A stretch of DNA of 64,000 nucleotides from assembly GCF_020091585.1 (NCBI RefSeq), contig NZ_CP083582.1, positions 1,054,001 to 1,118,000 on the forward strand, in the 5' to 3' direction. The translations under genes were made by a program, and so were the position numbers. How positions within the stretch are numbered: the stretch's first letter is position 1; each line of letters begins with the position of its first letter. This DNA is from Kovacikia minuta CCNUW1. GTDB taxonomy: Bacteria > Cyanobacteriota > Cyanobacteriia > Leptolyngbyales > Leptolyngbyaceae. This document shows, piece by piece, positions 44,511 through 60,783 of the stretch. Under the pieces are notes generated by a model. The model saw only the letters and a program-made list of their open reading frames with translations, searched no databases and was not told where the DNA came from.

Positions 44511-45245
44511 CTATATCTGATCAGGATCAACGCCCAATTCCCTTAATCGAGTTGCCAGACGCTCGGCCCGCTGGCGTTCCTGTTCTGCCCGTTCGTTAGG
44601 GTAGGGTAACCATCGTTTGGTGGCATCATACCAACGTAACCAGAGTCCCTCTGTTGCTTGATATGCTCCCTGCCAAACTCCCAATCCTAATCCAATTTCC
44701 TCAAACCAGAATCGTTGGTCTGAAAGTTCTTTTTCCTGATACCGGGTTGCCACTAATTGAAATACTCGAAGTTGATTCTGGTAGCGATCGAAAACGGCAT
44801 AGTAGGGAATTCGCAAAATTTGCTCATAGACCTGCCACTTGGTTGGCGGTTGGTGAATTTCTCTCAGGGTTTGTCCCAGATCTTCTGCTTCTGTACCTGG
44901 TGAAAGTAGCTCGATCACAAGAAAAGGGGTTACCCCTTCTTGCCAAACCACATAGCTCAAGCGTATCTCTCGCTGTTGTTGAGCGCGAGCTACCCCTAAG
45001 ACTAAAAACCAGTCTGGGCGTTTCTGCCAAAGGGAATGGCGGACATCGTAGAAGAGGTTAATATCTGTTCCAATAAATATCTCGTCAGTGGAATAGCCTT
45101 GAGGGCAGCAGGTTTCTCGCAACAACTGGGGTTGAAAGCTGTGAAACTCATCGGGCACGCCAGACTCCTCTGGGTCTTCGCTGGGAAGATCGTACATCGT
45201 GGGCAGCACTTCGCTGGCAGGACGAGGTGGATCAGTCTGGTACAT
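44511..45245 (-). CDS. Uma2 family (DUF820) restriction-endonuclease-like protein
   Basis: 244 residues with a PD-(D/E)XK-type core: KRPDWFLVLGVAR supplies the Asp and PFLVIELLSPGTEAEDLG the Glu region. The N-terminus MYQTDPPRPASEVLPTMYDL is nearly the same as that of the Uma2 gene at 55894-56745, so the two are recent paralogues. The C-terminus is a short charged helix ending LRELGVDPDQI. Uma2 proteins are expanded in cyanobacteria and their role is unclear; nuclease activity is inferred from the fold. It closes the ABC-type polysaccharide cluster. Confidence 0.88.
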   Translation of the reverse strand: MYQTDPPRPASEVLPTMYDLPSEDPEESGVPDEFHSFQPQLLRETCCPQGYSTDEIFIGTDINLFYDVRHSLWQKRPDWFLVLGVARAQQQREIRLSYVVWQEGVTPFLVIELLSPGTEAEDLGQTLREIHQPPTKWQVYEQILRIPYYAVFDRYQNQLRVFQLVATRYQEKELSDQRFWFEEIGLGLGVWQGAYQATEGLWLRWYDATKRWLPYPNERAEQERQRAERLATRLRELGVDPDQI

Positions 45246-45289: not shown

Positions 45290-46282
45290 CTAAGCCTGAA
45301 TGCGATCGCCCTTTTGAATATGCCGCCAACCATAGCGGAAATACCAGGGTTTAGAATCGGCAACGTAATGATGCAGGATCGCCTGAGGATGGATGGTTTC
45401 CTCCTGATTTGGCATGACGATGTAGTTTTCTACAGGGGCAATCACACAGGGTTTGCCTGCCATTAGCATGGCAATGAGTGCCTGTTCCTGGTAGTAGTGG
45501 GTTCCCTGCTGCTCGATCATGGTTTTGCACCAAAATTCAAGCTGTTCCCAATCAATCTCGTCACTATTGAGACCACAAATCCCGACGTTGACTCGATCGG
45601 GGATCTCTGTTTGTACCAGTGCCTCCATCAAGGGTTTGGGATAGCCGTAGGAAGTCTCGGTGTCTACCATATAGCAGGGAGCCTGGGGAGCCTGGAGCCA
45701 ATTCAGCAACAGAGTTGGTGGGCGAAAAAATAGCATGTCAGAGTCGAGTACCAGTTTCCAACCATGATTGCCAAGATGAACATCGGTGAGCTTGCGAATA
45801 TTGGGATAATACTGGCGGCGATCACGCAGATAAGGAAACCGATGTTGCGGCAGATATTCCTCAATCAGTACATCTAACTCAGGTTTGAGAAAGATTTTGA
45901 CATTTGGGAAGATGCGTTGAATGGCTTCCTGGTAACATTTTTGCAGTGATCCATCGTCATAGATCACGGGACGGATTGGTAATTCGGTTTGCTGTGCCAA
46001 TGAAACTGCACAGAAGCAGGTTTGATACCAGAATTTTTTACCCGTTAGAAAGTGAACTTCGAGTGCGGGAAGGGAGGTGTCAGATGGGATGGTAGGGAGT
46101 TGATAGGCTGCCTGTTCCATTCGTCGCTGTGCCTGGGCATCCACAACCGTATTCCACAATCCCTTCCGCAAACTCGATCGGGCAGCATTTCTGGGAGCGT
46201 AGTAAAGACGATAGGCGATCGCGCCCAGTTTCAGAGATTTGAGAAGTTGCTGGAGATTGCTGCTGAATGAACTGGAGTACAT
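45290..46282 (-). CDS. putative GT-A glycosyltransferase, family not assigned
   Basis: 330 residues, no membrane helix. Features are HFLTGKKFWYQTCFCAVSLA, LPIRPVIYDDGSLQ, HLGNHGWKLVLDSDMLFFRP (a DxD-like metal site, D-S-D) and GICGLNSDEIDWEQLEFWCK, with HYYQEQALIAMLMAGK late. This is the layout of GT-A transferases acting on protein or glycan acceptors. I cannot name a CAZy family. It lies 7 bases downstream of the DUF1919 gene and 44 bases upstream of Uma2, in the same transcription direction as the ABC-type cluster. Confidence 0.72.
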   Translation of the reverse strand: MYSSSFSSNLQQLLKSLKLGAIAYRLYYAPRNAARSSLRKGLWNTVVDAQAQRRMEQAAYQLPTIPSDTSLPALEVHFLTGKKFWYQTCFCAVSLAQQTELPIRPVIYDDGSLQKCYQEAIQRIFPNVKIFLKPELDVLIEEYLPQHRFPYLRDRRQYYPNIRKLTDVHLGNHGWKLVLDSDMLFFRPPTLLLNWLQAPQAPCYMVDTETSYGYPKPLMEALVQTEIPDRVNVGICGLNSDEIDWEQLEFWCKTMIEQQGTHYYQEQALIAMLMAGKPCVIAPVENYIVMPNQEETIHPQAILHHYVADSKPWYFRYGWRHIQKGDRIQA

Positions 46283-46289
46283 TGTTTGT

Positions 46290-46988
46290 TTAGAAGGTAG
46301 GGGGACAAGATGCGGAACGGGTCAACTTAATTTGACCGCTGCCTCCATTCAACCAATCAATCACATCAAAGTATTTTTTACCAATCCGGTAAAGTTCTCC
46401 ACCGTCAACAACCGATTCATCTTGCTTACATTCCTCTATCCAAACAGCCGAGCGTAAAGTGGGATGAGGTTGACTGGTAAAGCAAACTTTATGGGCGTAC
46501 TTTAGTTGATCGAATTCTATGAGTAATTGGTTTGTGCAAAGTTCACGATCGCAGAACTTAAAAAATATTCTGTCCTGATTGTTCCAGTTAATTCGCTGAG
46601 ATCTTCTGATCCATTTCTCCCTCGCTTCCGTTTCACTTGCATAGTGCATAAAATGAATTTCGATCGCATCACCAAGTAACCCGATCGGATACAAATCCCA
46701 GATTCCTTGTTTTCTTGCCTCATTAGCAGGTTGATATTTTGAACAGGTAATAAATCGAAGCGTCTGTTCCAAATAAGTTCTGGGGTTCTGTAAAAGCTGG
46801 ATATAACAGGGAGCAAATAGAAATAATCCTACGAAGGGCGTTTGATAGGGCAAACCAAACTCTCGATAAACCTCTCCTCCCCAACAGTTATTGGAGATGA
46901 TTGTAAAATTTTTATTTCTTAGTTGAGAACGCACTAGCGTTTTAACGAACTGATTCCGATATGTTTTGAGTGTTGTTTTGATTGACAT
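46290..46988 (-). CDS. DUF1919 family protein (polysaccharide biosynthesis-associated)
   Basis: 232 residues. Recognised by FTIISNNCWGGEVYREFGLP, QTPFVGLFLFAPCYIQLLQN, YPIGLLGDAIEIHFMHYASE with EAREKWIRRSQRINW, and the C-terminal motif DVIDWLNGG. DUF1919 proteins occur in surface-polysaccharide loci and are predicted transferases; no activity is established to my knowledge. ATG 46988 gives MSIKTTLKTYRNQFVK. It is 7 bases upstream of the GT-A-like gene, so the two are probably cotranscribed. Confidence 0.83.
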   Translation of the reverse strand: MSIKTTLKTYRNQFVKTLVRSQLRNKNFTIISNNCWGGEVYREFGLPYQTPFVGLFLFAPCYIQLLQNPRTYLEQTLRFITCSKYQPANEARKQGIWDLYPIGLLGDAIEIHFMHYASETEAREKWIRRSQRINWNNQDRIFFKFCDRELCTNQLLIEFDQLKYAHKVCFTSQPHPTLRSAVWIEECKQDESVVDGGELYRIGKKYFDVIDWLNGGSGQIKLTRSASCPPTF

Positions 46989-47110: not shown

Positions 47111-48058
47111 CTAGTCTGGTAATGCCCCTAAACCTTCAAATGTTCCACACGCTGCTCTCCAACGGATGTAGGCAGCAGGACTGCTCCAGGGTTTGTAACT
47201 GAAAAATGCTTTAATCTGTCTAGGTAGAACTGTCCAACCGGGAATTTTTTGCCAGGGACGGATGCCATGCACATCTAATACCTGTATCCACGATCGAGAT
47301 GAAGCGTAGTTCACACGGGCAAGGTATTCTGTGGTGACCCGTCCGGCAGGAATCAAATGGGTGAGTTGCAATTGGGGAAAGTAACCAATTTCCCAACCAG
47401 CTTCTAAAAGGGTGAGGTTGATGTCACAATCGCCTCCAGATTGCAAACTCCGACCTGTGCGATCGAACGCTTGTCGAGTGCTGTCTGATTGCAACAGGTC
47501 AGCATAGAATTGGGCTGCTACTTTTCTTAGTCCCATCCCTGCACCGATCGGAGCAAATTCAGGGTGGGATTTGCCAGAACCATCCTGCTTACAAAAGGAA
47601 TAGGTTCTCACCTCATCACCGAAATCTCTTAATGCTAAACAAACATCAAATTCCCTGGTCCAAGTTTCTGGCAAACTTTCAAACTCTGGTAGTGACTTGC
47701 CGCCAATCACACCTATCTCAGAATTGTTTTGAAAGATTTCAACTGCATTTTTCAAATAGTCTGGGTGCAAAACATTATCATCATCCACAAAAACGATGTA
47801 TTCTCCCCGACTGGCTTGAATCCCTGTCAAACGTGCCCGCGTCAATCCTAAACAGTTTTCTCGAATAACAACCGCTTGGGGGTGCCACGAGGTATCAAAA
47901 CTGGAGAGATAGTGAATATCAGGTGTAGCATTATCGATGATTAAAAGTTCCCACTGGTCAAAATTAAAAGTTTGCTGCTGGAGACCTTCCAGGGTTCTTT
48001 CTAAACGAACTCGGTTGGGTTTATAGGTAGGAATGACAACAGAGAGTTGAGGCATCAT
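47111..48058 (-). CDS. glycosyltransferase family 2
   Basis: About 315 residues. MMPQLSVVIPTYKPNRVRLE starts the GT-A domain; IIDNATPDIH, IVFVDDDNVLHPDYL (DxD) and GAGMGLRKVAAQFYADLL follow, with GGDCDINLTLLEAGWEIGYF in the acceptor half. ATG 48058 overlaps the acyltransferase stop as ATGA, indicating translational coupling. The longer frame to 48202 runs inside that gene. Part of the ABC-type polysaccharide cluster. Donor and acceptor are unknown. Confidence 0.91.
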   Translation of the reverse strand: MMPQLSVVIPTYKPNRVRLERTLEGLQQQTFNFDQWELLIIDNATPDIHYLSSFDTSWHPQAVVIRENCLGLTRARLTGIQASRGEYIVFVDDDNVLHPDYLKNAVEIFQNNSEIGVIGGKSLPEFESLPETWTREFDVCLALRDFGDEVRTYSFCKQDGSGKSHPEFAPIGAGMGLRKVAAQFYADLLQSDSTRQAFDRTGRSLQSGGDCDINLTLLEAGWEIGYFPQLQLTHLIPAGRVTTEYLARVNYASSRSWIQVLDVHGIRPWQKIPGWTVLPRQIKAFFSYKPWSSPAAYIRWRAACGTFEGLGALPD

Positions 48059-48642
48059 AAGCGAGTTCTCACAACTTTTGCAGGAACGCCAACCGCAATT
48101 GAGTATGGAGGCAAATCTTTTGTTACTACGGCACCCGCACCAACAACGCACCCGTTTCCGATCGTGACGCCACCTAAAACAGTGACGGACCCTCCTAGCC
48201 AAACATCTTCACCAATGGTGGTTGGCTGCAAAATATTGGGTTGATGACGAATAGGAGCATTTCTTTCAGGAATCGCATGAGTTGAAGATAGAATCCGGCA
48301 ATGCATGGCGATTAAGGAATCTTTTCCAATCCTGACACCACCTTGTCCGTAAATGACGGTATACGGTCCAATAAAAACATTGTCCTCAATCAGGATAGAG
48401 CCACCCCAGCATTCTAAAATAGCCCCTTGAGACAGTTCTGTTTTTTCACCAATTTGAATTTTTCCTCTATTTCCCTTTAAAAACCCTGGAGATCCTTTTA
48501 CACCCGTTCCAATGCTACAAGAAGAGGCGATTTCAATCCCGATACTTCTAAAGACAATGATTCTCCAAAGATTCTGTAAAGGTTTAAGGCGATTCAAAAT
48601 AATGCCTAAAACTGATTTGTTGTAAATGGCAACCATTTGCAT
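48055..48642 (-). CDS. hexapeptide-repeat O-acyltransferase
   Basis: 195 residues of left-handed beta helix: SCSIGTGVKGSPGFLKGNRG, KIQIGEKTELSQGAILECWG, SILIEDNVFIGPYTVIYGQG, and the terminal EDVWLGGSVTVLGGVTIGNG with GCVVGAGAVVTKDLPPYSIA. This ending is typical of maltose-acetyltransferase/WcaF-type enzymes. It probably acetylates a sugar of the exported polysaccharide. A short amphipathic helix opens the protein. It follows the Wzt gene by 11 bases and overlaps the GT2 gene by 4 bases. Confidence 0.88.
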   Translation of the reverse strand: MQMVAIYNKSVLGIILNRLKPLQNLWRIIVFRSIGIEIASSCSIGTGVKGSPGFLKGNRGKIQIGEKTELSQGAILECWGGSILIEDNVFIGPYTVIYGQGGVRIGKDSLIAMHCRILSSTHAIPERNAPIRHQPNILQPTTIGEDVWLGGSVTVLGGVTIGNGCVVGAGAVVTKDLPPYSIAVGVPAKVVRTRL

Positions 48643-48653
48643 CGTTAAAACAG

Positions 48654-49898
48654 CTAATGACAGGTATCTGAAACACTCCAGGAAGCAGCAACCTTAAATG
48701 GACCAATTACATCCGGAGATAAGCCTTCAGGCAATGCTTGAGAAGCGATATAGTCAAATGTCAAAGCATCAGTTTGAACATCATAGTTCTGATTTTTTTC
48801 TCCAAACCAGACAGAGAGCTTATAGCTGCCTGGATGCAAAGGAAGATTTTTAATAAATAGTGTTGCTACTCCTGATTTCAACTTTGTAGGCTCAAATCCT
48901 GAGTCAATTCGGGTATTGGTTCCAAATAAGGGCATGCCATGAATGCTATAAACAACAATCCCAACAAGTGGCGGATCTAGTATCCAGGGAGAGTTGAAAT
49001 GAACATTAATCTTGAGATCGCCTTGGTCTAAAGCTTTCTGATCTAAGGCAACTTTGAGAATAGAAGGAGTATTTGCTTTGGACTGTCCAACAAAGACTGA
49101 TTGATTGATATCAGAATGATAAGAACTGAGTGCTTCTAAAGTTGTTGTGTTTGATTTTAAGCACCCTTTCTCCAAAACGATGCCACGATTACACAAACTC
49201 ACGATCGCACTACTGTTATGGCTAACAAAAAGAATGGTTCTTCCCTGATTACTGACTTCATGCATTTTGCCTAGACACTTCTTCTGAAATTTGGCATCTC
49301 CCACAGCTAACACCTCATCTACAACCAATATTTCAGGTTCCAAATGGGCTGCGACGGCAAACGCTAAGCGGACGTACATTCCTGATGAGTAGCGCTTCAC
49401 AGGGGTGTCTAGAAACTTTTCGACCTCTGCAAAGGCGACGATTTCATCAAACTTGCGTTGAATTTCGACTTTGCTCATCCCCAGAATGGCACCATTCAGG
49501 TAGATATTTTCCCGTCCGGTCAACTCTGGGTGGAAGCCTGTTCCCACTTCTAATAGACTGGCAACCCGCCCTTTAATCCGAATCGATCCCGTGGTGGGTT
49601 CGGTGATCCGGCTGAGGATTTTAAGCAGGGTTGATTTGCCTGCACCGTTGCGTCCAATAATGCCAACCCGATCGCCCTGATTAATCTCGAATGACACATC
49701 CTTGAGTGCCCAAAACTCTTCTCTAGAAGAGTTTTGAGTTTTGAGTTTTGAGTTTTGAGTGAAAGGATTAGCTGCCTTTACCAATGATTTAGTCCGCTTA
49801 GCAATCACATCTCGTAGTGCGACATAGCGCTCTGATTGCTGATGAGCAAGGATATATTGCTTGCTGAGATTTTCAACCTGAATGATTGGATCGCTCAT
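48654..49898 (-). CDS. ABC transporter ATP-binding protein for polysaccharide export (Wzt/TagH-like)
   Basis: 414 residues. The nucleotide-binding domain has Walker A GRNGAGKST (82-90), the signature region YSSGMYVRLAFAVAAHLEPE, and Walker B EILVVDEVLAVGDA. After residue 255 a separate domain (TPSILKVALDQKALDQGDLK to GPFKVAASWSVSD) resembles the Wzt C-terminal carbohydrate-recognition domain. With the Wzm permease (56803-57636) it would export a finished polymer. Residues about 46-58 (FTQNSKLKTQNSS) are encoded by a GAGTTTT heptamer repeat inserted in frame just before the conserved EEFWALKDV; usual family members have a shorter link here. Confidence 0.93.
   Translation of the reverse strand: MSDPIIQVENLSKQYILAHQQSERYVALRDVIAKRTKSLVKAANPFTQNSKLKTQNSSREEFWALKDVSFEINQGDRVGIIGRNGAGKSTLLKILSRITEPTTGSIRIKGRVASLLEVGTGFHPELTGRENIYLNGAILGMSKVEIQRKFDEIVAFAEVEKFLDTPVKRYSSGMYVRLAFAVAAHLEPEILVVDEVLAVGDAKFQKKCLGKMHEVSNQGRTILFVSHNSSAIVSLCNRGIVLEKGCLKSNTTTLEALSSYHSDINQSVFVGQSKANTPSILKVALDQKALDQGDLKINVHFNSPWILDPPLVGIVVYSIHGMPLFGTNTRIDSGFEPTKLKSGVATLFIKNLPLHPGSYKLSVWFGEKNQNYDVQTDALTFDYIASQALPEGLSPDVIGPFKVAASWSVSDTCH
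49711..49760. repeat. GAGTTTT heptamer repeat within the wzt-like gene
   Basis: A short inverted pair (CAAAACTCTTCTCTAGAAGAG, truncated here at its centre: CTCTTCT/AGAAGAG) leads into about four GTTTTGA heptamers. The reading frame of the host gene is kept. The unit matches the A-rich heptamers in the anmK insertion. Confidence 0.7.
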
Positions 49899-50058: not shown

Positions 50059-50799
50059 TTAGATCTGGTCCGGGTCTACACCCATTTCGCGCAGTTTTTC
50101 CGCCAACCGTTCTGCCCGTTGCCGTTCTGCTTCTGCTCGTTGGTGTTCTGTTTCAGCCCGTTGCCGTTCTGCCGCCGCCCGTTCCTGGTCAGTTGGCAAG
50201 ACCTCACCTGTTAGCGTTGCCCAGCGTAGCCAGGTGGCATCCACCTCTCTGAACCGTCCCTGCCAGCGCACCAGCGCCAACCCCAACTGCTGACTGATGA
50301 GCCAGCCATCGGATGTACTGGAAATGGGTTGATAGCCGCCTGGTCGCAAACTAAATCCGGCAAAGTCAGTTGGGTTAAATGGGTCATACCAGAAGTATTC
50401 TGGTACCCGCAGGCGATTCTGATAGATTTGCTTTTTATCGGTCTTGTCGCGATCGCGGGTGCTATCTGAAAGTAGCTCAATCACCACATCGGGTGCTTTA
50501 CCTTCGTCCCAAACGACCCAGCTTTTGCGTTCTCCCACGGGTACATCCAGCACTACAAATACATCCGGCCCCTTATAGTCGTGATTCTTTACCTGCAATG
50601 GGCTGAAGTAGACAAACATATTGCCGCCCACAAAACCGCTGCCCTGCTCCAATACCAACCAGGTGTTCAAGGAATCCACCAACAAATCCATTTGCAGCTT
50701 GTGTCGGTAGGTTTCCATCGGAATACCATCATCACAGGGTAATTCGTCCTGGGTGGGCGGCAATGGAATATCCAATTCGTTGAATGCAGGTTCCAGCAT
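50059..50799 (-). CDS. Uma2 family (DUF820) restriction-endonuclease-like protein
   Basis: 246 residues. The core carries KGPDVFVVLDVPVGERKSWV and DVVIELLSDSTRDRDKTDKK, a PD-(D/E)XK arrangement. It is a more distant paralogue of the two other Uma2 proteins here: its N-terminus (MLEPAFNELDIPLPPTQDEL) is different. The tail shares the repeated QRAE units (EHQRAEAERQRAERLAEKL) and the terminal MGVDPDQI. It interrupts the ABC-type polysaccharide cluster between wzt and the methyltransferase remnant. Cellular function unknown. Confidence 0.87.
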   Translation of the reverse strand: MLEPAFNELDIPLPPTQDELPCDDGIPMETYRHKLQMDLLVDSLNTWLVLEQGSGFVGGNMFVYFSPLQVKNHDYKGPDVFVVLDVPVGERKSWVVWDEGKAPDVVIELLSDSTRDRDKTDKKQIYQNRLRVPEYFWYDPFNPTDFAGFSLRPGGYQPISSTSDGWLISQQLGLALVRWQGRFREVDATWLRWATLTGEVLPTDQERAAAERQRAETEHQRAEAERQRAERLAEKLREMGVDPDQI

Positions 50800-50850: not shown

Positions 50851-51017
50851 AGCAGGTGTTAGGTGTCAGGTGTTAGGTGTCAGGTGTCAGGTGTTAGGTG
50901 TCAGGTGTCAGGTGTTAGGTGTCAGGTGTCAGGGAAGAAATAGCCAGCGACAGGGGGTTTCAGTGATATGGCAGGTGTTAGGTGTCAGGTGTCAGGTGTC
51001 AGGGAAGAAATAGCCAG
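50851..51017. repeat. two AGGTGTY heptamer arrays with a duplicated flank
   Basis: Array 1 (50851-50933) has about 11 units alternating AGGTGTT and AGGTGTC; array 2 (50971-51003) has about 4. Each array ends with the same 20-base string GTCAGGGAAGAAATAGCCAG (50928-50947 and 50998-51017), so the arrays arose with a local duplication. Confidence 0.8.
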
Positions 51018-51077: not shown

Positions 51078-51906
51078 TCACTCAGAGATGGGTTTCTTTG
51101 CGATCCAGCACAAATTCGCAGGGGTGCGATGCTTGTTACCCAAGATTGTGTCCATCAGCAGGGCGATCGCATTCATTAAACCAATCACGGGTGCGAGTAA
51201 AACCGCTCTTGATGACGAAAAGCCCTGGGCTTCCCCATCTTTTCGGGTCGTTAATACCCAATCCATTGCAATCATTAAAGCAGCGGCGGAATGAACGCCC
51301 CCGCTCCCTTCTATGTTGATATCAGTAAATCCAGCTTTTTCGAGCAGTTGCTTTAAGCCCAGGTCGGTATATCGTCGGAAATCAAAGGGTTCAAGATGTA
51401 CGGGGCTAACGTGGGGAACAGAACCAATGCACCAACCCCCTGGTTTTAGTACGCGATACATTTCGGCAACCGCTTCAGTTGGTTCCAGGACATGTTCAAG
51501 TACCTGCGTTCGATAAAATAATGTCAGCAGAAACTTCAGGAATGGAAAGCTTTTCCGCAAATCCAACCATTTGCTTAATGGGTCGAACTTCATTTTGAGG
51601 CAAACTTTCGATCGAATCGATGGCAATGTAGTCCTCTACTAGTTCAGCAAAAATGGGATAGTAAGGACTTTTACCTGCACCGACATCCACTAAAGTGAGT
51701 GCATTTCCAGGCAGTTGATTTCTGGTTGCCCAAAGAAATCGATTGATATGGCGCACATTATGATAGTTGAACGAAAAGATTGTATTGTTGGGATGCCTTC
51801 CCAAAATCAAATGTTGATATCGTTCAACGACCTTTTTGAGTAGAAAAGCGAGATGCATTGCAAAACCAGAATTTGATTTTAGGTTTGATTCTGAAGGATT
51901 GGTCAT
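51078..51906 (-). pseudogene. class I SAM-dependent methyltransferase with an apparent one-base frameshift
   Basis: From ATG 51906 the frame includes TLVDVGAGKSPYYPIFAE (SAM motif I) and YIAIDSIESLP, ending in EVSADIILSNAGT and a stop. The rest is open in the neighbouring frame: TQVLEHVLEPTEAVAEMYRV with LKPGGWCIGSVPHVSPVH, ending at 51078. Joined with one base fewer in TCGAACGC (about 51508-51515) the text reads ILSTQVLEHVLEP, the standard motif IV region. It probably methylated a sugar of the exported polymer. Decay and sequencing error both remain possible. Confidence 0.82.
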
Positions 51907-52056: not shown

Positions 52057-53283
52057 TTACCCTTTAGCAAGAATCTGCTGATATAGCTCAATATACCGCT
52101 GTGCCTGGAGTTCCAGAGGATATTCGCGCAGGGCAATTTCTCGGCAGTGATGGCTCATTTGGGCGCGGAGGGCGTGATCTTCCAGCAGTTGCACAATGCC
52201 ATCACAGAAATCAGTGGTATTTTCAGGGGTGGCCAGGTAACCCGTTACCCCTGGACGTACCAGATCTGGAACCCCACCTACTTTGAAGGAAACCATTGGG
52301 GTGCCACACGCCATACTTTCCTGGAGCACCAGCGGCACATTGTCCGCGCGGGTGGGAAACACAAACAAATCTGCTGCCGAATAGGCGATCGACTTCAGGC
52401 GATCGCTGTTGACGTAACCTAAATCTAGCGTCGGCATGCCCACCATGTCTGCAATTTCAGCCCCGCTTTCCCCCAGCGTCAGCAAGACAATCTCTTGCTT
52501 GAGGGAATCGGGTAAGCATTGCAGTGCTTTGACCAGCAAATCTCCCCCTTTACGGGTGTCTTTCAGCTTTTGTGCCCCAAACAGCAGCACCCGCTTACCC
52601 GCTGGTAGCCCTAATACAGCACGGCATTGTTGGGGGTCCAGGGGTTGGTAAGCTTGGGTGTCAATGCCATTGGGAATGGTATGGATGGGAAACCGATTCA
52701 GCATACTTTGCTGAACCCGATCAGTCAGCCATTGGCTCAGCGCCACAATGGTCAGGTCAGACCGCTGGTAAAGCCAGTTTTTGAGCTTCCATTCCAGGGC
52801 AGTATTGTCCCTTAAAATTTCGGGATAAACGCTGGGATAGGGACAGGAACCACAGCCCGTCTGCCAGCGATCGCAGTCGTAGCTATAGGCACAATGCCCT
52901 GTAAAACTCCACATATCGTGCAGGGTATAAACCGCAGGCTTGGGTTTCGTCAACACTGGAATCGCCAGGTAATTGAAGTAGCCGGTATGCAGGTTGTGAA
53001 AGTTGAGAATGTCTGCCGCTTGATAGGAAGGGTAATTAGGAATTCCGAAGGAGCTAACGACGTTGAGATAGTTCAATCCGAGGCGAGAGGTGAGGCGGTA
53101 AAGTTTGTCTTCCAGGAAAGGTTGGCGGGGAATTCGATTGATCCGGGAATGGTCGATCGTGGCAGTTCCTACCAGCAGATTGGAATCAATTCCCGCAGCC
53201 AATAACCCCTGGTGCAGGCGGTACCCCGCGATCGCGGCTCCTCCCCCTGCCAGATCCGATTGGTTAAGATGCAAGACGTTCAT
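52057..53283 (-). CDS. glycosyltransferase family 4
   Basis: 408 residues. The start MNVLHLNQSDLAGGGAAIAG is typical of this subgroup. The acceptor half has TLHDMWSFTGHCAYSYDCDR and a Cys-rich GCGSCPYPSVYPEI stretch seen in related enzymes. The donor half has LFGAQKLKDTRKGGDLLVKA, FVFPTRADNVPLVLQESMAC and GTPMVSFKVGGVPDLVRPG with the E-x7-E pair. Part of the ABC-type polysaccharide cluster, downstream of the radical SAM/pyruvyl transferase gene. Donor sugar unknown. STRR heptamers lie immediately upstream of the start. Confidence 0.91.
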   Translation of the reverse strand: MNVLHLNQSDLAGGGAAIAGYRLHQGLLAAGIDSNLLVGTATIDHSRINRIPRQPFLEDKLYRLTSRLGLNYLNVVSSFGIPNYPSYQAADILNFHNLHTGYFNYLAIPVLTKPKPAVYTLHDMWSFTGHCAYSYDCDRWQTGCGSCPYPSVYPEILRDNTALEWKLKNWLYQRSDLTIVALSQWLTDRVQQSMLNRFPIHTIPNGIDTQAYQPLDPQQCRAVLGLPAGKRVLLFGAQKLKDTRKGGDLLVKALQCLPDSLKQEIVLLTLGESGAEIADMVGMPTLDLGYVNSDRLKSIAYSAADLFVFPTRADNVPLVLQESMACGTPMVSFKVGGVPDLVRPGVTGYLATPENTTDFCDGIVQLLEDHALRAQMSHHCREIALREYPLELQAQRYIELYQQILAKG

Positions 53284-53297
53284 AGCGCACCCTCTGG

Positions 53298-53442
53298 TGA
53301 TAGGTGTCAGGTGTCAGGTGTCAGGTGAGAATTAAGAATTAAGAATTAAAAATTAGGGGTGGAGTGAAGAGGGTTCAAAGCTCAGTTTCACGTCTAATTC
53401 ATCATTCATCATTCATCATTCACCATTCACCATTCACCATTC
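53298..53442. repeat. STRR tracts: CAGGTGT, AATTAAG and CATTCAC units
   Basis: Three different low-complexity arrays follow each other: CAGGTGT heptamers (53302-53325), AATTAAG-type units (53330-53352), and ATTCATC/ATTCACC heptamers (53397-53442). The last array covers the 3' end of the radical SAM fusion gene and encodes its final residues MVNGEW. Confidence 0.75.
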
Positions 53443-55741
53443 TTTCCTGCCATTTACCTGTTGCCACGTCCTGAAGTGAAATCAGGCGATCGAGTTGATT
53501 TCGATGGTGCAAAAAGGCTTTGATTTTGCCACCACCAGTGTAGTCGATCGCCAGATAGGGCACACCCAACGTTTCGGCAAACAAAACGGAGTGAAACCGC
53601 ATGCAGATATTTAATTGGGCATGATACATGCTTTGCAGAATTTCAGCCGGGGAAATGTGTCCCTTGGCATAGGCTACGTGAACGCCTGCGCTTTGTTCGG
53701 AAACACGGTGGGTTAAGGCTTTGGCGAATCGGCGGTTAAAGACTCGATCGTCTCCTCCAACATGAAAGGTGTGCATCGGCAGGAGGTGGATATTCAGGTT
53801 TTTGGTGGTCGCGATCGTTCCCACAAGGTCTGCCAATTGGGTTTCAAACGGCTGCTTCAGTTCGTCAAATTCTTCTGGACACAAATCCCCAGCGTATTCC
53901 TGCGTCCATTCCCTTAAAAAGCAAGCAACATTGGGGGTTAGCCCCAGCGGTGGCACGTTCCCCTGCAACTTGCCAGCGGCTTTGACGGTTTGCACATAGT
54001 CTGTCGCGGGATCGGGGGTGACTAAAACGTTGGGTGCTGGAAACTGTTTCAGGCTCCGATCCGCCGATGCCTGGTCGCGCAGGCTGACCTGATCTGAGAG
54101 CCGGAAGATCTCAGAGACCACCTGGGTATAAACCGGATCGTGAAGGGGACCGACGCCGCAACCTTCAATTCTTGCCACAGCCCGGTTTTGGGCAGCTTTT
54201 GTAAAGGCATAGAGAATATGGTTGAGGGGTTCGATATCCATCAATGGACCTCCGCCCACCACCACTTCATCGACGCGATCGCAGACGGTTTCAAACTCCT
54301 GGGAATAGGTCTCTACAAGGGTGATGTTGCCCAAATTCATCTCCCGAATTGTCCAGTCCGAGATGAAGGGATAGAGGCTGGAGAGGTAAATTTTTTCTGG
54401 CGGATGGGGGCGCGATCGCAACCGCTCAATCACAGTCCACAAAATTGCCTTATCTCCCACCGTTTCCGTTCCATACCAACCCACAATCAATACCTGGCGG
54501 GAACCGAGGCTGGATAAATCTTCAATCTCCGTTCGTTGTTTTCCCTGGGTTGCAGAGAGGGTCAGTAATTTTGCACAGTCATATTTGCGCTGCCTGCGCC
54601 GATTGAGATAATCCGCCACCTGTTCTCGAAACGTCACCGGCACATGATAGTCGTGGATGCAATCTTTGCAATCGTTTTGGCGAATCTGTTGACGCTGATC
54701 AAGATTCGAGAAGAAGAGCTTACGGGCAGAAGTTTCTAGCGTATTTCCCAAACTGGGAGATTTGGGGGCACAGTACAGCAACTCGCCCCGCGAGGTTAGA
54801 ACTGCTGCCCTGGCTTGATAGGGACATCCAATTTGCCTTGGTTTGCCCTCTACCAGCATGCGCCGGATGTTTCGGTAAGTCTTACGAAACATCGGGTTCG
54901 GTTCAAAATCTTGCTCTGCTCGAAAGAAAAACAATCCCAGATGGTACAGGGTTTTATCGTCAAACGCTCTGACAAATTCCGTCTGCCCCTGGTTATATAA
55001 CCGATTGATAAACTCTGCAATCCTGAATCTGCCGTACAACCCTTCCGCTTTTGCAAAATCCAGCAGTTCATCGACCTCCAGGGCATTTGATGAAGTGATA
55101 GTGCAGCCAAATGAGGTAGGAATATCGGTTTCCTGGTGAAAGAATTGAAGCAATGACAGCGTGGATTCAAAATTATTTTTGCGCCCTCTCACCGTGTCGT
55201 GTACCGCTTCCAACCCATCCAGGGAGAACATCACATTGAACGGGACGCCGTAGGATGCACAGACCTGGGCGGATTCCAGGACGCGCTGTTTTACCACATC
55301 ATGAATAATCCCATTGGTAATGATGCCCGTGCCCAAAATCCGGGGTGTTTTGGCGCAAATTACTTTGAATAAATCGGACAGGTCCGATCGCAGGGTTGGT
55401 TCTCCACCGCTCACACCCACATATTGCAGATTACTGAACAAATCATCATCCAAGACCCTTGCCAGTTCATCGGGAGTGAGTTCCCTATCCTTTTTGTTTT
55501 TCCAGATCAGGCACATCTGGCAACGGGAGTTACAGACATCATTGACCAGCAGGTTAAGTGCCGTAGGTTTGGGCGGAAATAGGTCCCCTAATGCTTCCGT
55601 TCTAAAATCCTGATAGGCAAGTCGGGTATAGGAAACCACTTTCTGAAGCTGGTTTTTCTGTTTCTGATTAAGGAGGGATGAGAGTGCCTGTTTTGCATTT
55701 TTTAAAATTCTGGTTTGGGACAGAATGGGGGTAGATGGCAC
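53420..55741 (-). CDS. fusion of radical SAM (SPASM-type) and polysaccharide pyruvyl transferase domains
   Basis: 773 residues. The N-terminal half is radical SAM: LNLLVNDVCNSRCQMCLIW with cluster Cys70, 74 and 77, then SGGEPTLRSDLSD and FNVMFSLDGLEAVHD. A SPASM-like region has Cys306, 324, 358 and 361 (GCPYQAR, LLYCAPK, CKDCIHDY) for an auxiliary cluster. The C-terminal half (about 415-745) is a polysaccharide pyruvyl transferase: VLIVGWYGTETVGDKAILW, VVVGGGPLMD, SLRDQASADRSLKQF and CMRFHSVLFAETLGVPYLAI. It could modify a sugar by radical chemistry and add a ketal pyruvate, or act on a peptide-linked glycan. The final residues come from repeat DNA. Activity is inferred from domains only. Confidence 0.9.
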   Translation of the reverse strand: MPSTPILSQTRILKNAKQALSSLLNQKQKNQLQKVVSYTRLAYQDFRTEALGDLFPPKPTALNLLVNDVCNSRCQMCLIWKNKKDRELTPDELARVLDDDLFSNLQYVGVSGGEPTLRSDLSDLFKVICAKTPRILGTGIITNGIIHDVVKQRVLESAQVCASYGVPFNVMFSLDGLEAVHDTVRGRKNNFESTLSLLQFFHQETDIPTSFGCTITSSNALEVDELLDFAKAEGLYGRFRIAEFINRLYNQGQTEFVRAFDDKTLYHLGLFFFRAEQDFEPNPMFRKTYRNIRRMLVEGKPRQIGCPYQARAAVLTSRGELLYCAPKSPSLGNTLETSARKLFFSNLDQRQQIRQNDCKDCIHDYHVPVTFREQVADYLNRRRQRKYDCAKLLTLSATQGKQRTEIEDLSSLGSRQVLIVGWYGTETVGDKAILWTVIERLRSRPHPPEKIYLSSLYPFISDWTIREMNLGNITLVETYSQEFETVCDRVDEVVVGGGPLMDIEPLNHILYAFTKAAQNRAVARIEGCGVGPLHDPVYTQVVSEIFRLSDQVSLRDQASADRSLKQFPAPNVLVTPDPATDYVQTVKAAGKLQGNVPPLGLTPNVACFLREWTQEYAGDLCPEEFDELKQPFETQLADLVGTIATTKNLNIHLLPMHTFHVGGDDRVFNRRFAKALTHRVSEQSAGVHVAYAKGHISPAEILQSMYHAQLNICMRFHSVLFAETLGVPYLAIDYTGGGKIKAFLHHRNQLDRLISLQDVATGKWQERMVNGEW

Positions 55742-55893: not shown

Positions 55894-56745
55894 TTAGATT
55901 TGTTCGGGATCGATGCCCATCTTCCTGAGTTGTTCTGCCAGACGTTCAAGCCGTTGGCGCTCTTGTTCTAATAGCAGTTCAGCCTGTTCTGCTCGCTGAT
56001 GTTCTTGCTCTGCTCGCTGATGTTCTTGCTCTGCTCGCTGATGTTCTTGTTCTGCTCGTTGGCGTTCCTGTTCTGCCTGTTGACTTTCAATTTCCGTTGG
56101 CGTTGGAATCCACTCGCCAAGAGCGTCATACCACCGTAGCCATAAGCGATCGATGCCCTGAAAAGTTCCCTGCCACAACCCTAAACCTAATTCTAAGGTA
56201 GGCATCCAAATTCGAGCTTGGGTTAGTTCCAGTTCACTATAGCGATCGGCAACCAGTTGAAATGCTTGCAGGCGATCGCTGTATCGGTCAAATACTACGT
56301 AGTAAGGAACACGCAAAATCTGTTCGTAGACTTCCCATTTGGTAGGCGGCTGGTTGACATCGCGCAACGTTTGACCCAAATCTTCCTTCTCCGTTCCTGG
56401 AGAAAGCAACTCTACCACCACATAAGGGCTGACGCCTTCTTGCCAGATGACATAACTCAATCGCAGATCTCGCTGGTCATAAAGTCGAGGCACACCCACG
56501 GCTGCAAACCAATCGGGGCGTTTGTACCACTGCGGATGGCGCACATCGTAGTAGAGGTTAAGATCCGTACCCACAAAAATTTGGCTAGCTGAAACAGTGG
56601 GTGGGCGAAAGGTCTCGTACAGTAGCTGGGGTTGCAAATCATGAAATTCGTCAGGCAATCCAGGCCCCCCCGGATCTTCGCTGGGAAGATCATACATGGT
56701 CGGCAGTGTTTCCTGCGGTGGGAGGGGTGGATCGGTTTGATACAT
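55894..56745 (-). CDS. Uma2 family (DUF820) restriction-endonuclease-like protein with QRAEQEH repeats
   Basis: 283 residues. Core motifs are KRPDWFAAVGVPRLYDQRDL and SPYVVVELLSPGTEKEDLGQ. The N-terminus MYQTDPPLPPQETLPTMYDL matches the paralogue at 44511-45245. The C-terminal helix is enlarged by tandem copies of RAEQEHQ (about residues 230-260), then LRKMGIDPEQI. It lies between the Wzm permease gene and the radical SAM fusion gene, with 57 bases to the former. The role of Uma2 proteins in cyanobacteria is unknown; nuclease action is a fold-based inference. Confidence 0.88.
   Translation of the reverse strand: MYQTDPPLPPQETLPTMYDLPSEDPGGPGLPDEFHDLQPQLLYETFRPPTVSASQIFVGTDLNLYYDVRHPQWYKRPDWFAAVGVPRLYDQRDLRLSYVIWQEGVSPYVVVELLSPGTEKEDLGQTLRDVNQPPTKWEVYEQILRVPYYVVFDRYSDRLQAFQLVADRYSELELTQARIWMPTLELGLGLWQGTFQGIDRLWLRWYDALGEWIPTPTEIESQQAEQERQRAEQEHQRAEQEHQRAEQEHQRAEQAELLLEQERQRLERLAEQLRKMGIDPEQI
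55985..56060. repeat. 21-base tandem repeat in the Uma2 gene
   Basis: TCTGCTCGCTGATGTTCTTG(C) is repeated three times with few changes, followed by a more divergent fourth copy. It encodes the HQRAEQE units of the coiled-coil tail. Confidence 0.85.
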
Positions 56746-56802: not shown

Positions 56803-57636
56803 CTAAATCACATCTGCAAAGGTTCGTTCCACTTTACGGAAGTACCAGATGCCAGTCAATAGTACCAGCACCACTAGCGCCAGCGATAACAAAAATCCGG
56901 GGATGTACAAACTGAAATTGCCACCCAAAATTGCCCAACGAAAGCCGTCAATTACACCCACCATTGGGTTGAGCGAATAGAGCAGACGCCATTTTTCGGG
57001 CACGATGTTACTTTGAAACCCAACCGGTGAAATGTAGGTGCCAAATTGAACAATGAATGGCACGATGTAGCGAAAATCCCGATATTTCACATTCAATGCT
57101 GCTAACCACAATCCAGTACCCATTGATGCAGCAAAGGCGATCGCAATAAATAAGGGCAACGTCACGATTCGCCAACTGGGCACAAAGTTATACCACGCCA
57201 TTAGACCCAGCAAAACCATCCCCGCCACCAAAAAGTCTACAAAACTAACTATCACTGAACTCAACGGTACAATTAAGCGGGGAAAGTAAACCTTCGACAA
57301 CAGGTTGGCATTGCCAATCAGGCTATTGCTGCACTCGGATAAGGCATTGGCAAAAAACTGCCAGGGTAACATCGCCGAATACACCAGAATGGGGTAGGGC
57401 ACCCCACCTGAAGGCAATTTTGCCAGAGCGCCAAACACCACGGAAAACACCAACATCGTCAGGAAAGGACGAATCAGTGCCCAGGCAATTCCGATCGCGG
57501 TTTGCTTATACCGCACTAAAATATCGCGCCATGCCAGGAAATACAGGAGTTCCCGATAGCGCCACAGATCTTTCCAGTACTGGCGTTCTGCCCGACCTGC
57601 TTCGATTACCAATTCAGGTTTAGTTGATTGAATCAT
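56803..57636 (-). CDS. ABC transporter permease for polysaccharide export (Wzm-like)
   Basis: About 278 residues with six hydrophobic helices, ABC-2 type. Motifs are YRELLYFLAWRDILVRYKQT with AIGIAWALIRPFLTMLVFSV, the typical opening of Wzm/KpsM proteins, and later GTYISPVGFQSNIVPEKWRL and NPMVGVIDGFRWAILGG. ATG 57636 (MIQSTKPELVIEAGR) is preferred because the 28 upstream codons are not family-like. The partner ATPase is encoded at 48654-49898, 7 kb downstream on the same strand, with glycan genes and two Uma2 genes between. First gene of the ABC-type cluster. Confidence 0.93.
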   Translation of the reverse strand: MIQSTKPELVIEAGRAERQYWKDLWRYRELLYFLAWRDILVRYKQTAIGIAWALIRPFLTMLVFSVVFGALAKLPSGGVPYPILVYSAMLPWQFFANALSECSNSLIGNANLLSKVYFPRLIVPLSSVIVSFVDFLVAGMVLLGLMAWYNFVPSWRIVTLPLFIAIAFAASMGTGLWLAALNVKYRDFRYIVPFIVQFGTYISPVGFQSNIVPEKWRLLYSLNPMVGVIDGFRWAILGGNFSLYIPGFLLSLALVVLVLLTGIWYFRKVERTFADVI

Positions 57637-57729
57637 GATGACGAAAAAGGTGGGAAGTTGAACCGAAAGGTTGGAAAAGTAATTGTTTGTTTGCCTTATA
57701 CCAATTCTTTGTGAAGGCACATGGTTCTC

Positions 57730-58055: not shown

Positions 58056-58967
58056 TCAAGTCTTCGGTTTAAGGGGTTTCCGGTTGATGATTGCCATTAC
58101 CACATAGTAATAAGTGGTAAAAAGCAAGGCTGAGAAAATTTGACCGCCCCAGAACCCATGCCAGAATTCAAACGCGCTTTTCCCCCAGTAAGCCTGGGAC
58201 ATCGCCAGCAACACAATCCGGGGAATATTGAACACCAGCGCTAAAAATATCCCAATGGCAATCATTAAGGTGATGTGCGATCGCCGTTGTTTGAACAGCA
58301 GCCCAATCATTAAACCTGCCACTGCAATGTTGAGTGCCATATCAAACCCATTGCAGCCCCAGTCCACCCGAACTGACCCTCCGGGCAGGGAAATGATATC
58401 ATTGGCAAACTTGACCTGCTGGCCGATCGCCTTCAATGTCCATCCTCCCCCCCATGCCATCAAACGCTCCAGGGAATTGGGTGGCGTAAATGCCTGCCAC
58501 AATGCTTTTGCGATCGGGCTTTTATTGGGCAGGATGCCACCCAGAATTAATAGTGTTGAAAGAAGATGCTTCTGAAAAAAAGCAGCACCCCAAACACTAC
58601 AGGCGACTCCCGTCAGAATGACTGAGCAAACCAACGCTAAGGACCATTCTGAAGTCACACAAAAGGGGAAAAGCACCGCGCCTCCCAAAATCAGAACGTA
58701 TCCCAACAGGCGATCCTCGTCTCCAGCCTGCAATTTTTCAAGCTGACGCCGATCTTTCCATAGGAACCAGAGTCCCAAACTGATTACCCCAAGTGCCAGA
58801 ATGCCACTCGAAAACCCCCGTAAGGAAAAGATGAGGAGCTTAAACAATCGAACGGCTAAGTAAGCAAAAACGAATAACAAACCAGCCGTCAAAATTCGAC
58901 TATGGGTTGTTTTAATACTTTCGTGCAGCAGGCGGGTTGCTAACTGCTTTGTCTGTTTCCGATTCAT
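58056..58967 (-). CDS. cyanoexosortase (exosortase/archaeosortase family)
   Basis: About 303 residues with eight or nine membrane helices. Catalytic triad positions are visible in periplasm-facing segments: Cys205 in VDWGCNGFDMALN, Arg250 in FNIPRIVLL, His270 in EFWHGFWGGQIF. Exosortases are predicted transpeptidases that recognise C-terminal PEP-CTERM-like signals and process surface proteins in step with polysaccharide export. The type looks like cyanoexosortase A. ATG 58967 (MNRKQTKQLATRLL) is preferred, as the seven upstream codons lie in STRR sequence. An HpsJ-like gene and a PTPA-CTERM protein gene lie upstream on the same strand. Confidence 0.9.
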   Translation of the reverse strand: MNRKQTKQLATRLLHESIKTTHSRILTAGLLFVFAYLAVRLFKLLIFSLRGFSSGILALGVISLGLWFLWKDRRQLEKLQAGDEDRLLGYVLILGGAVLFPFCVTSEWSLALVCSVILTGVACSVWGAAFFQKHLLSTLLILGGILPNKSPIAKALWQAFTPPNSLERLMAWGGGWTLKAIGQQVKFANDIISLPGGSVRVDWGCNGFDMALNIAVAGLMIGLLFKQRRSHITLMIAIGIFLALVFNIPRIVLLAMSQAYWGKSAFEFWHGFWGGQIFSALLFTTYYYVVMAIINRKPLKPKT

Positions 58968-58989
58968 GCGACTTACCACCTGACACATT

Positions 58990-60183: not shown

Positions 60184-60783
60184 TTAGCTAGCCTCTTCTG
60201 CAACTTCAGTTTTCCGTCGCCGGAAAGCAGCCACGCCCAACCCAATCAACCCTGGCAGCAAAGCCGGAGTAGGAATTGCCTGGGCTGAAAATTCCGCGTT
60301 CCTGAAGAGGGAACTTGAACTGCCCGAAACATTTGCCTGTCCTTGAAGTTGAAGCACGCCCGCAGAGAAAATCTGGAAACTAAGCGCATTGGTACCCAAC
60401 GCGTAAGCGCCAGGGAAAGTCCCAATTAATTCAAAGGTGGATGGCAAAAGATTCAGCGTGAAAGGATCTCCTGCCAATGTCCCAGTGAGGAAGTTGTTAA
60501 CCGGGGTGGTGAAGCTGAACGTATTTCCACCAGAGGGTGCCAGCGTGATAGACGTAGGGCCGAATGATAGCCCGTTTAAGCCCGTTAAGCCGCCCGTAGC
60601 ATTTGATACAGAGCCTGAGAAGTTGAGCACAAAATTTGAACCGCTTTGGGTTACCGTTGGCGGTGTTAGCCTGAATGAGCCAGGTGTTAAAGTGGCTGCC
60701 TGAGCCGGAGAAATTGCCATTGCCGAACCAGCGACGACGGCTGTGGCAACGGCTGCGTTAATGCCTAGTGTCTTAAAACCCAT
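60184..60783 (-). CDS. PTPA-CTERM sorting-domain surface protein
   Basis: 199 residues. It has a signal peptide (helix AAVATAVVAGSAMAISPAQA, cleavage near AQA-A). The body consists of Thr/Ser/Gly-rich strands (SGSVSNATGGLTGLNGLSFG). The C-terminal tripartite signal is IPTPALLPGLIGLGVAAFRR then RKTEVAEEAS: a PTPA motif, a hydrophobic helix and basic residues. This is the cyanobacterial variant of PEP-CTERM, recognised by a cyanoexosortase. A cyanoexosortase gene lies 1.2 kb downstream on the same strand, which makes them a likely enzyme and substrate pair. A terminator follows. The mature part has no recognised fold. Confidence 0.9.
   Translation of the reverse strand: MGFKTLGINAAVATAVVAGSAMAISPAQAATLTPGSFRLTPPTVTQSGSNFVLNFSGSVSNATGGLTGLNGLSFGPTSITLAPSGGNTFSFTTPVNNFLTGTLAGDPFTLNLLPSTFELIGTFPGAYALGTNALSFQIFSAGVLQLQGQANVSGSSSSLFRNAEFSAQAIPTPALLPGLIGLGVAAFRRRKTEVAEEAS

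Follow-up and report, generated by a model that had tools for sequence, protein, structure and literature searches.

We describe a gene of the cyanobacterium Kovacikia minuta CCNUW1 that joins a radical S-adenosylmethionine (SAM) domain, with a twitch extension, to a polysaccharide pyruvyl transferase domain. The gene occupies positions 53420-55741 of the window, the 64,000-nucleotide stretch of contig NZ_CP083582.1 (positions 1,054,001 to 1,118,000) that was analysed here. The data support a genuine fusion, with both domains complete and under selection, within a surface-polysaccharide cluster that includes a Wzm/Wzt exporter. On balance we favour a bifunctional enzyme that tailors the glycan of a cyanobacterial surface polysaccharide linked to an exporter, a reading in which we infer both reactions and their shared substrate.

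Results

An intact fusion gene

The plus strand over the gene is interrupted by stops, whereas the minus strand runs through 773 codons without interruption. A preliminary description of this DNA had proposed one uninterrupted frame joining two untruncated domains, and both points hold. PF04055 (Radical_SAM) matches residues 68-228 with 60.6 bits (cut-off 29.5) and PF04230 (PS_pyruv_trans) matches residues 429-734 with 70.9 bits (cut-off 25.3), the latter over profile positions 3-278 of 280. The predicted model of the full protein has a mean predicted local distance difference test (pLDDT) score of 81.2 and a predicted template modelling (pTM) score of 0.81; the whole-model pTM suggests that the two halves may be packed in a defined, fixed way.

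The same architecture was found in 15 distinct cyanobacterial genomes (the window, L001-L004, G193, G083, G064, G441, G463, G448, G550, G596, G598 and G753; the duplicate pairs L001/G574, L002/G656, L003/G529 and L004/G767, whose contigs agree exactly in length, were each counted once). Fourteen of them encode it as a single open frame, so that no stop or frameshift of the kind that the preliminary description had named as fatal to a fusion separates the halves. In G448 the gene is frameshifted within the pyruvyl transferase half (frames of 639 and 117 aa), and in L002 the open frame extends upstream to 891 aa, which leaves its start uncertain. Both halves look functional from their residues. 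When the window gene was compared with eight homologues (nine of the 15 sequences in all), codon positions 1/2/3 differed by 0.25-0.34/0.10-0.21/0.59-0.66 in the radical SAM half and by 0.32-0.45/0.18-0.25/0.61-0.70 in the pyruvyl transferase half; both are under constraint at second codon positions.

The radical SAM half carries a twitch domain

The CxxxCxxC site was recognized correctly in the preliminary description. It reads CNSRCQMC, and the CX3CX2C motif, present in 15/15 sequences, together with the significant PF04055 match places the domain in the radical SAM superfamily. The four further cysteines of auxiliary-cluster type are also real (C306, C324, C358 and C361), and their spacing, CX12[G/A]X4C-x33-CX2C, is identical in all 15 homologues, with glycine changed to alanine in one. 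Invariant across the 15 radical SAM halves are CX3CX2C, GGEPTLR, the four auxiliary cysteines and C213, which lies in strand 209-215 of the barrel.

The label SPASM, given earlier to the auxiliary domain, has to be replaced. SPASM comprises seven cysteines, CX9-15GX4C-gap-CX2CX5CX3C-gap-C (PMC6231123). The second motif half, CX5CX3C, is missing in 15/15 homologues, and Pfam PF13186 scores 13.7 bits against a cut-off of 21.5. Since CX5CX3C and the last cysteine are missing, the auxiliary domain is a twitch domain, a shortened SPASM, with four candidate ligands, the motif providing the ligand set for one predicted auxiliary cluster in all 15 sequences. The nearest radical SAM model in NCBIfam, that of the PTO1314 family (TIGR03961), was also rejected (69.0 bits against 306.05).

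The twitch sactisynthase SkfB (6efn) is the best match in both structure and sequence (Z 21.2, root-mean-square deviation (rmsd) 3.5, 275 aligned, E 2.9e-15). As in the fusion, its auxiliary ligands are separated by CX33C (PMC6231123); unlike the fusion, SkfB has a peptide substrate and, in its structure, an auxiliary cluster with an open site. The cytosylglucuronate decarboxylase BlsE (7vob; Z 20.6, rmsd 3.5, 285 aligned) is a radical SAM enzyme that acts on a sugar, but the identity is 14% and the solved protein has no pyruvyl transferase. BtrN, the twitch dehydrogenase of butirosin synthesis (Z 15.5, rmsd 3.3, 224 aligned), acts on a polyol ring and has a single auxiliary cluster that is fully ligated by four cysteines (PMC9012708); it differs from the fusion in its small soluble substrate, in sharing 16% identity and in not being fused. 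VIA-align fold matches were also obtained with MoaA (Z 19.6, rmsd 3.5, 268 aligned), DesII (Z 17.4, rmsd 4.5, 283 aligned) and the peptide epimerase EpeE (Z 13.9, rmsd 4.4, 255 aligned). The ligand pattern and the modelled fold of the radical SAM half are compatible with a BtrN-type dehydrogenase, which would oxidise a cyclic polyol by two electrons.

The pyruvyl transferase half is distinct from CsaB

Residues Y423, R555, R610, R715, H717 and K739 are invariant in all 16 rows of an alignment that comprised 14 of the 15 fusions (without the frameshifted L084), the related protein of L102 described below and the genome's own CsaB. They correspond to Y14, R148, R207, R306, H308 and K328 of P. 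alvei CsaB, a protein that is not among the aligned rows; its numbering was transferred by motif, with the genome's own CsaB as the link. Y14, R148, R207, H308 and K328 have been probed by mutation, and R306 by docking only (PMC10435577). The full-domain match above the gathering score and the retained counterparts of R148, R207, R306, H308 and K328 identify the half as a member of PF04230.

It was rejected as a CsaB equivalog (TIGR03609), with 80.1 bits against a cut-off of 213.1. A separate PF04230 gene in the same genome is a true CsaB by the same model (386.6 bits), and the fused half is distinct from this housekeeping pyruvyl transferase, with which it coexists. It shares with CsaB the PF04230 domain and the main PEP-binding (phosphoenolpyruvate-binding) residues and can be aligned with the genome's own enzyme, but it departs from CsaB in its score, in the changed counterparts of S88 and F16 and in being joined to a radical SAM domain.

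The best fold matches are the uridine diphosphate N-acetylglucosamine (UDP-GlcNAc) 2-epimerases (Z 21.0, rmsd 3.4, 309 aligned); as that family shares the fold arrangement, fold alone cannot name the reaction. The yeast pyruvyltransferase Pvg1p (5ax7), whose acceptors are galactose or lactose (PMC10435577), follows with Z 18.4, rmsd 4.2 and 272 aligned, but it is a single-domain protein with 15% identity to the fused half. A PDB profile search with the pyruvyl transferase half found nothing significant (best E 0.11, unrelated; Pvg1p E 0.62), and the kinship with Pvg1p rests on the fold.

A rare fusion, probably inherited as a unit

When 84,980 species were scanned by pattern for the single protein, a search that detects close relatives only, four loci came up, all of them cyanobacterial. 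Whole-genome searches found the fusion in 4/386 sampled genomes of the phylum and in 1/42 genomes of the window's order, where the window itself is the only carrier found; further searches gave 2/58, 8/243, 3/38 and 9/388, in samples that overlap and with few first-look candidates scored per genome, so that members may have been missed. A spread so rare and patchy may reflect transfer or recurrent loss, both common among genes for surface polysaccharides. Cargo of a mobile element was considered and rejected: no plasmid record covers at least 80% of the query (five partial matches), nor does any phage record (two partial matches), and viral contigs gave one remote radical SAM match with 23% identity.

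A profile built from 8 of the 15 fusions scores fused members at no fewer than 878 bits over the main piece; the best unfused radical SAM match, in G667, reaches 87.4 bits among the first few candidates scored per genome. The close homologues found are fused, contrary to the earlier proviso that homologues might always be separate and unlinked. The three most diverged members (L039, L085 and L090) form one clade with support 1.0 in the trees of both halves, and pairwise identity in one half tracks that in the other (Pearson 0.94 across 13 loci, Spearman 0.67 for the 11 closer ones). Other branches differ between the two trees, several of them being weakly supported. To judge from these comparisons, one old fusion inherited as a unit would be the simplest account.

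Surrounding cluster and partner glycosyltransferase

A GT4 glycosyltransferase of one family is found near the fusion in 14/15 loci and adjacent to it in 13; in 12 it lies directly downstream on the same strand, with gaps of up to 485 bp and, in L039 and L090, a 4-bp overlap. In L001 the GT4 gene has the divergent orientation, 114 bp away; in G753 it lies 2.7 kb downstream, and in G550 only a 103-aa fragment was seen. The cysteine-rich motif of the GT4 resembles that of WcaC. GT4 identities correlate more weakly than the two halves do with each other, both with those of the radical SAM half (Pearson 0.66) and of the pyruvyl transferase half (0.74) over 13 loci; the GT4 profile was made from 13 of the 15 neighbouring proteins, the long form of L002 and the fragment of L085 being left out.

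The Wzm/Wzt system reported earlier was confirmed by a PF01061 permease and a PF00005/PF14524 ATPase in the cluster (Table 1). Wzt homologues are present at E 1e-20 or better in 9/15 loci including the window (8/14 other loci), and Wzm homologues in four loci besides the window's, some contigs being short. The surface-glycan context of the fusion is well supported. Beside the fusion gene of G083 (L038), an intact 279-aa methyltransferase homologue spans both pieces of the methyltransferase that is split in the window; the split reflects either decay or a sequencing error.

Tandem repeats of 7 bases (CAGGTGT, AGAATTA and ATTCACC) occupy the intergenic spaces 50853-51003 and 53302-53442, and one of them runs into the 3' end of the fusion gene. 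Three genes for putative endonucleases of the Uma2 family (PF05685) are scattered in the cluster (44511-45245, 50059-50799 and 55894-56745), the second and third with 21-bp tandem repeats inside the coding region. Upstream of the cluster lie genes for a cyanoexosortase C (58056-58988; 353.6 bits, NF033464) and a PTPA-CTERM protein (60184-60783).

Table 1. The fusion gene, its parts and neighbouring genes, in window coordinates.
Feature	Position	Strand	Remarks
Fused radical SAM/twitch-polysaccharide pyruvyl transferase gene	53420-55741	-	773 aa, GTG start
Radical SAM and twitch domain, residues 51-372	54626-55591	-	PF04055, profile limits, SkfB/BlsE-like fold
CNSRCQMC, CX3CX2C site for SAM-binding cluster, residues 70-77	55511-55534	-	three Cys invariant 15/15
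Four auxiliary-cluster Cys C306, C324, C358, C361 (twitch)	54659-54826	-	CX12GX4C-x33-CX2C
Linker, residues 373-413	54503-54625	-	poorly conserved, in frame
Pyruvyl transferase domain, residues 414-769	53435-54502	-	PF04230, TIGR03609 below cut-off, Pvg1p fold
MRFH...GGGK with PEP-binding residues R715, H717, K739	53525-53602	-	invariant in 16/16 rows including the genome's own CsaB
GT4 glycosyltransferase, partner gene	52057-53283	-	136 bp downstream of fusion; PF00534/PF13439
Wzm-type ABC-2 polysaccharide exporter permease	56803-57720	-	PF01061, 63.4 bits
Wzt ATPase with C-terminal glycan-binding domain	48654-49898	-	PF00005; PF14524 Wzt_C, 44.3 bits
Methyltransferase split over two frames (51496-51906, 51078-51626)	51078-51906	-	
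GT2 glycosyltransferase	47111-48202	-	PF00535, 71.4 bits; listed start is the longest possible and overlaps next gene
Hexapeptide-repeat acyltransferase	48055-48642	-	PF00132, 65.1 bits
Weak GT8-like protein	45290-46282	-	PF01501, 13.7 bits, below cut-off 24.3
DUF1919 protein	46290-46988		strong match, 186.8 bits

Other arrangements

The separate radical SAM protein nearest to the fused half, in G667, has the same CX12GX4C-x33-CX2C spacing but scores above the threshold of the SPASM model in Pfam as well (36.8 bits against 21.5). Its gene belongs to an operon-like run (L104, 7509-10545) with a separate PF04230 gene and, between the two, a MurB paralogue that scores 83.7 bits, short of the 144.5 required by the murB model; a normal MurB is encoded elsewhere in the genome. 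In G420, a 731-aa protein (L058, 9033-11228) combines a GT2 glycosyltransferase with a more distant radical SAM relative whose cysteines are spaced differently. This kind of radical SAM domain can therefore meet glycan enzymes in other arrangements. By eye, the neighbours of the G420 gene include cytidine monophosphate (CMP)-sugar synthetase-like and phosphatase-like open reading frames. In a 171-aa frame of G702 (L103, 9161-9676), a portion of a Wzt-like ATPase continues into the final stretch of the pyruvyl transferase half, which suggests the remnant of a deletion in a locus that once had Wzt upstream of the fusion.

Discussion

In our proposal, the partner GT4 would act in the cytoplasm and transfer a sugar onto a carrier-linked chain. 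The N-terminal half of the fusion protein would bind the SAM-cleaving [4Fe-4S] cluster and one auxiliary cluster with four cysteine ligands, as in BtrN, and the 5'-deoxyadenosyl radical would abstract hydrogen at a carbinol carbon, either in the sugar that the GT4 adds or in one next to it, leading to oxidation or epimerisation. The C-terminal half, judging by its PEP-site residues and its family, would transfer pyruvate from PEP to two hydroxyls of the GT4-added sugar as a cyclic ketal. The order of these steps is conjectural. Wzm/Wzt, where present, would export the product. A modification at the chain end would suit export through a Wzt whose C-terminal domain binds the glycan, as in O-antigen systems. 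A narrower version, in which the radical SAM domain inverts or oxidises one carbon on the assembled carrier-linked glycan, the same protein adds the pyruvate ketal and the capped end is read by Wzt, is offered with considerable reserve. The substrate had also been imagined as a glycopeptide; nothing in the analysis speaks for a peptide part.

For the radical half, two-electron oxidation is our tentative choice by a small margin, and a mild case can be made for it because a four-cysteine auxiliary cluster is thought to take the second electron in BtrN (PMC9012708). Epimerisation is only a little less likely; C213, an invariant barrel residue, would then be the candidate hydrogen donor. What likelihood remains falls to other radical chemistry.

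Several observations weigh against a bifunctional glycan-tailoring enzyme. Twitch domains serve dehydrogenation, GTP (guanosine triphosphate) rearrangement and thioether formation (PMC6231123, PMC9012708), and with chemistries so varied the twitch domain cannot name the reaction. In the pyruvyl transferase half, the docked PEP contact S88 of P. alvei CsaB aligns with P499 in the fused rows and with a serine in the genome's own CsaB; the position is a glycine in Pvg1p (PMC10435577) and, differing there also, is not family-defining. The acceptor residue F16 of P. alvei CsaB aligns with T425, and the genome's own CsaB has a leucine there. The GT4 family is broad, occurring in 65/373 genomes at E 1e-70 or better, and the idea that it is exclusive to the fusion was rejected. 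In 20 high-scoring GT4 loci from 18 fusion-free genomes (4 to 19 kb each), the radical SAM profile of the family, which would miss other radical SAM kinds, finds nothing at E 1e-3; one of them (L154) has a weak pyruvyl transferase match (5.6e-5), and the neighbours, examined by eye, resemble methyltransferases, glycosyltransferases and others. GT4 and radical SAM identities are loosely tied within the main clade (Spearman 0.33), and no Wzt is seen in the available DNA of 6/15 loci.

The alternative that survives best, though we think it unlikely, is that the halves act on different molecules, or on different residues of one pathway, and that fusion fixes only their dosage or their place at the membrane. 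G787 encodes a pyruvyl transferase (L102, 9393-11153) that is related to the fused half; its different N-terminal region of about 220 residues has no Pfam match at E 0.01 and no CX3CX2C, and a GT4 belonging to the broad family described above lies 1.65 kb away. A GT4-pyruvyl transferase pair can thus exist without a radical SAM domain, and the two activities can part. Whether separate homologues sit side by side in other genomes had been raised as a check. Of 12 genomes examined that have an unfused radical SAM homologue, G667 shows this arrangement; in 11 no PF04230 gene was seen near the radical SAM gene (it lay on another contig or more than 1 Mb away), in a set that includes several drafts whose contig ends may hide a link. 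No general genomic association of unfused radical SAM genes with PF04230 genes emerged (near each other in 1/12 genomes). G000 and G193 are counted among the 12 for their separate radical SAM genes, and such remote proteins need not be orthologous. Against separate substrates stand the gap between at least 878 bits for fused members and 87.4 bits for the best unfused radical SAM protein, again among the first few candidates per genome, and the high whole-model pTM.

A reading that we consider improbable makes the pyruvyl group, and not the sugar, the target of the radical SAM half, for example through radical addition to, or a stereochemical change of, an enolpyruvyl or lactyl ether in the manner of MqnE-type chemistry. 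The MurB paralogue of G667, lying between a separate pyruvyl transferase gene and a radical SAM gene, points this way. That arrangement comes from one locus, however, no search for MurB-like genes in the fused loci having been made, and the main ketal-type residues of CsaB are retained in the pyruvyl transferase half.

Still less probable, to the point that we give it little weight, is a catalytically dead half that serves as a binding or structural module. One of the 15 genes (G448) is frameshifted in the pyruvyl transferase half, of which G702 retains no more than a remnant, and a proline stands in the place of S88; set against this, the radical SAM and auxiliary cysteines are invariant in 15/15 sequences, the main PEP residues are kept in all 16 rows, and both halves show constraint at second codon positions. 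Nothing was found in favour of an artefact of assembly or frame, which the independent genomes refute, 14 of the 15 having one open frame.

Both domains are well known; their combination is without a description that we could find in open-licence papers. Among the best 25 of 62 NCBIfam matches no model exceeds its cut-off for the fusion, and searches of open-licence full texts yielded no paper that pairs radical SAM, in the spelling searched, with (polysaccharide) pyruvyl transferase; among the 15 listed of 24 papers that name these Pfam families, none has terms of both. The text of the review PMC6801904 is without the words 'radical', 'fusion' and 'bifunctional'. Proteins of this build may already be held, unstudied, in domain-architecture databases.

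Our favoured reading, a bifunctional glycan-tailoring enzyme, bears on how cyanobacterial surfaces are built. One cyanobacterium can hold two different enzymes of the pyruvyl transferase family, so that pyruvylated glycans in such an organism need not be of the CsaB type only. To our knowledge, the sugar-acting radical SAM enzymes (BtrN, BlsE and DesII) work on small molecules. Here such a domain is fused to a pyruvyl transferase, next to a glycosyltransferase and often near an exporter of the Wzt type, which suggests a surface polysaccharide as the target of the radical chemistry and offers a concrete pair of reactions for testing. If the proposal is true, the action of a radical SAM domain on an assembled, carrier-linked glycan would represent a biochemical step that is new to the synthesis of surface polysaccharides.

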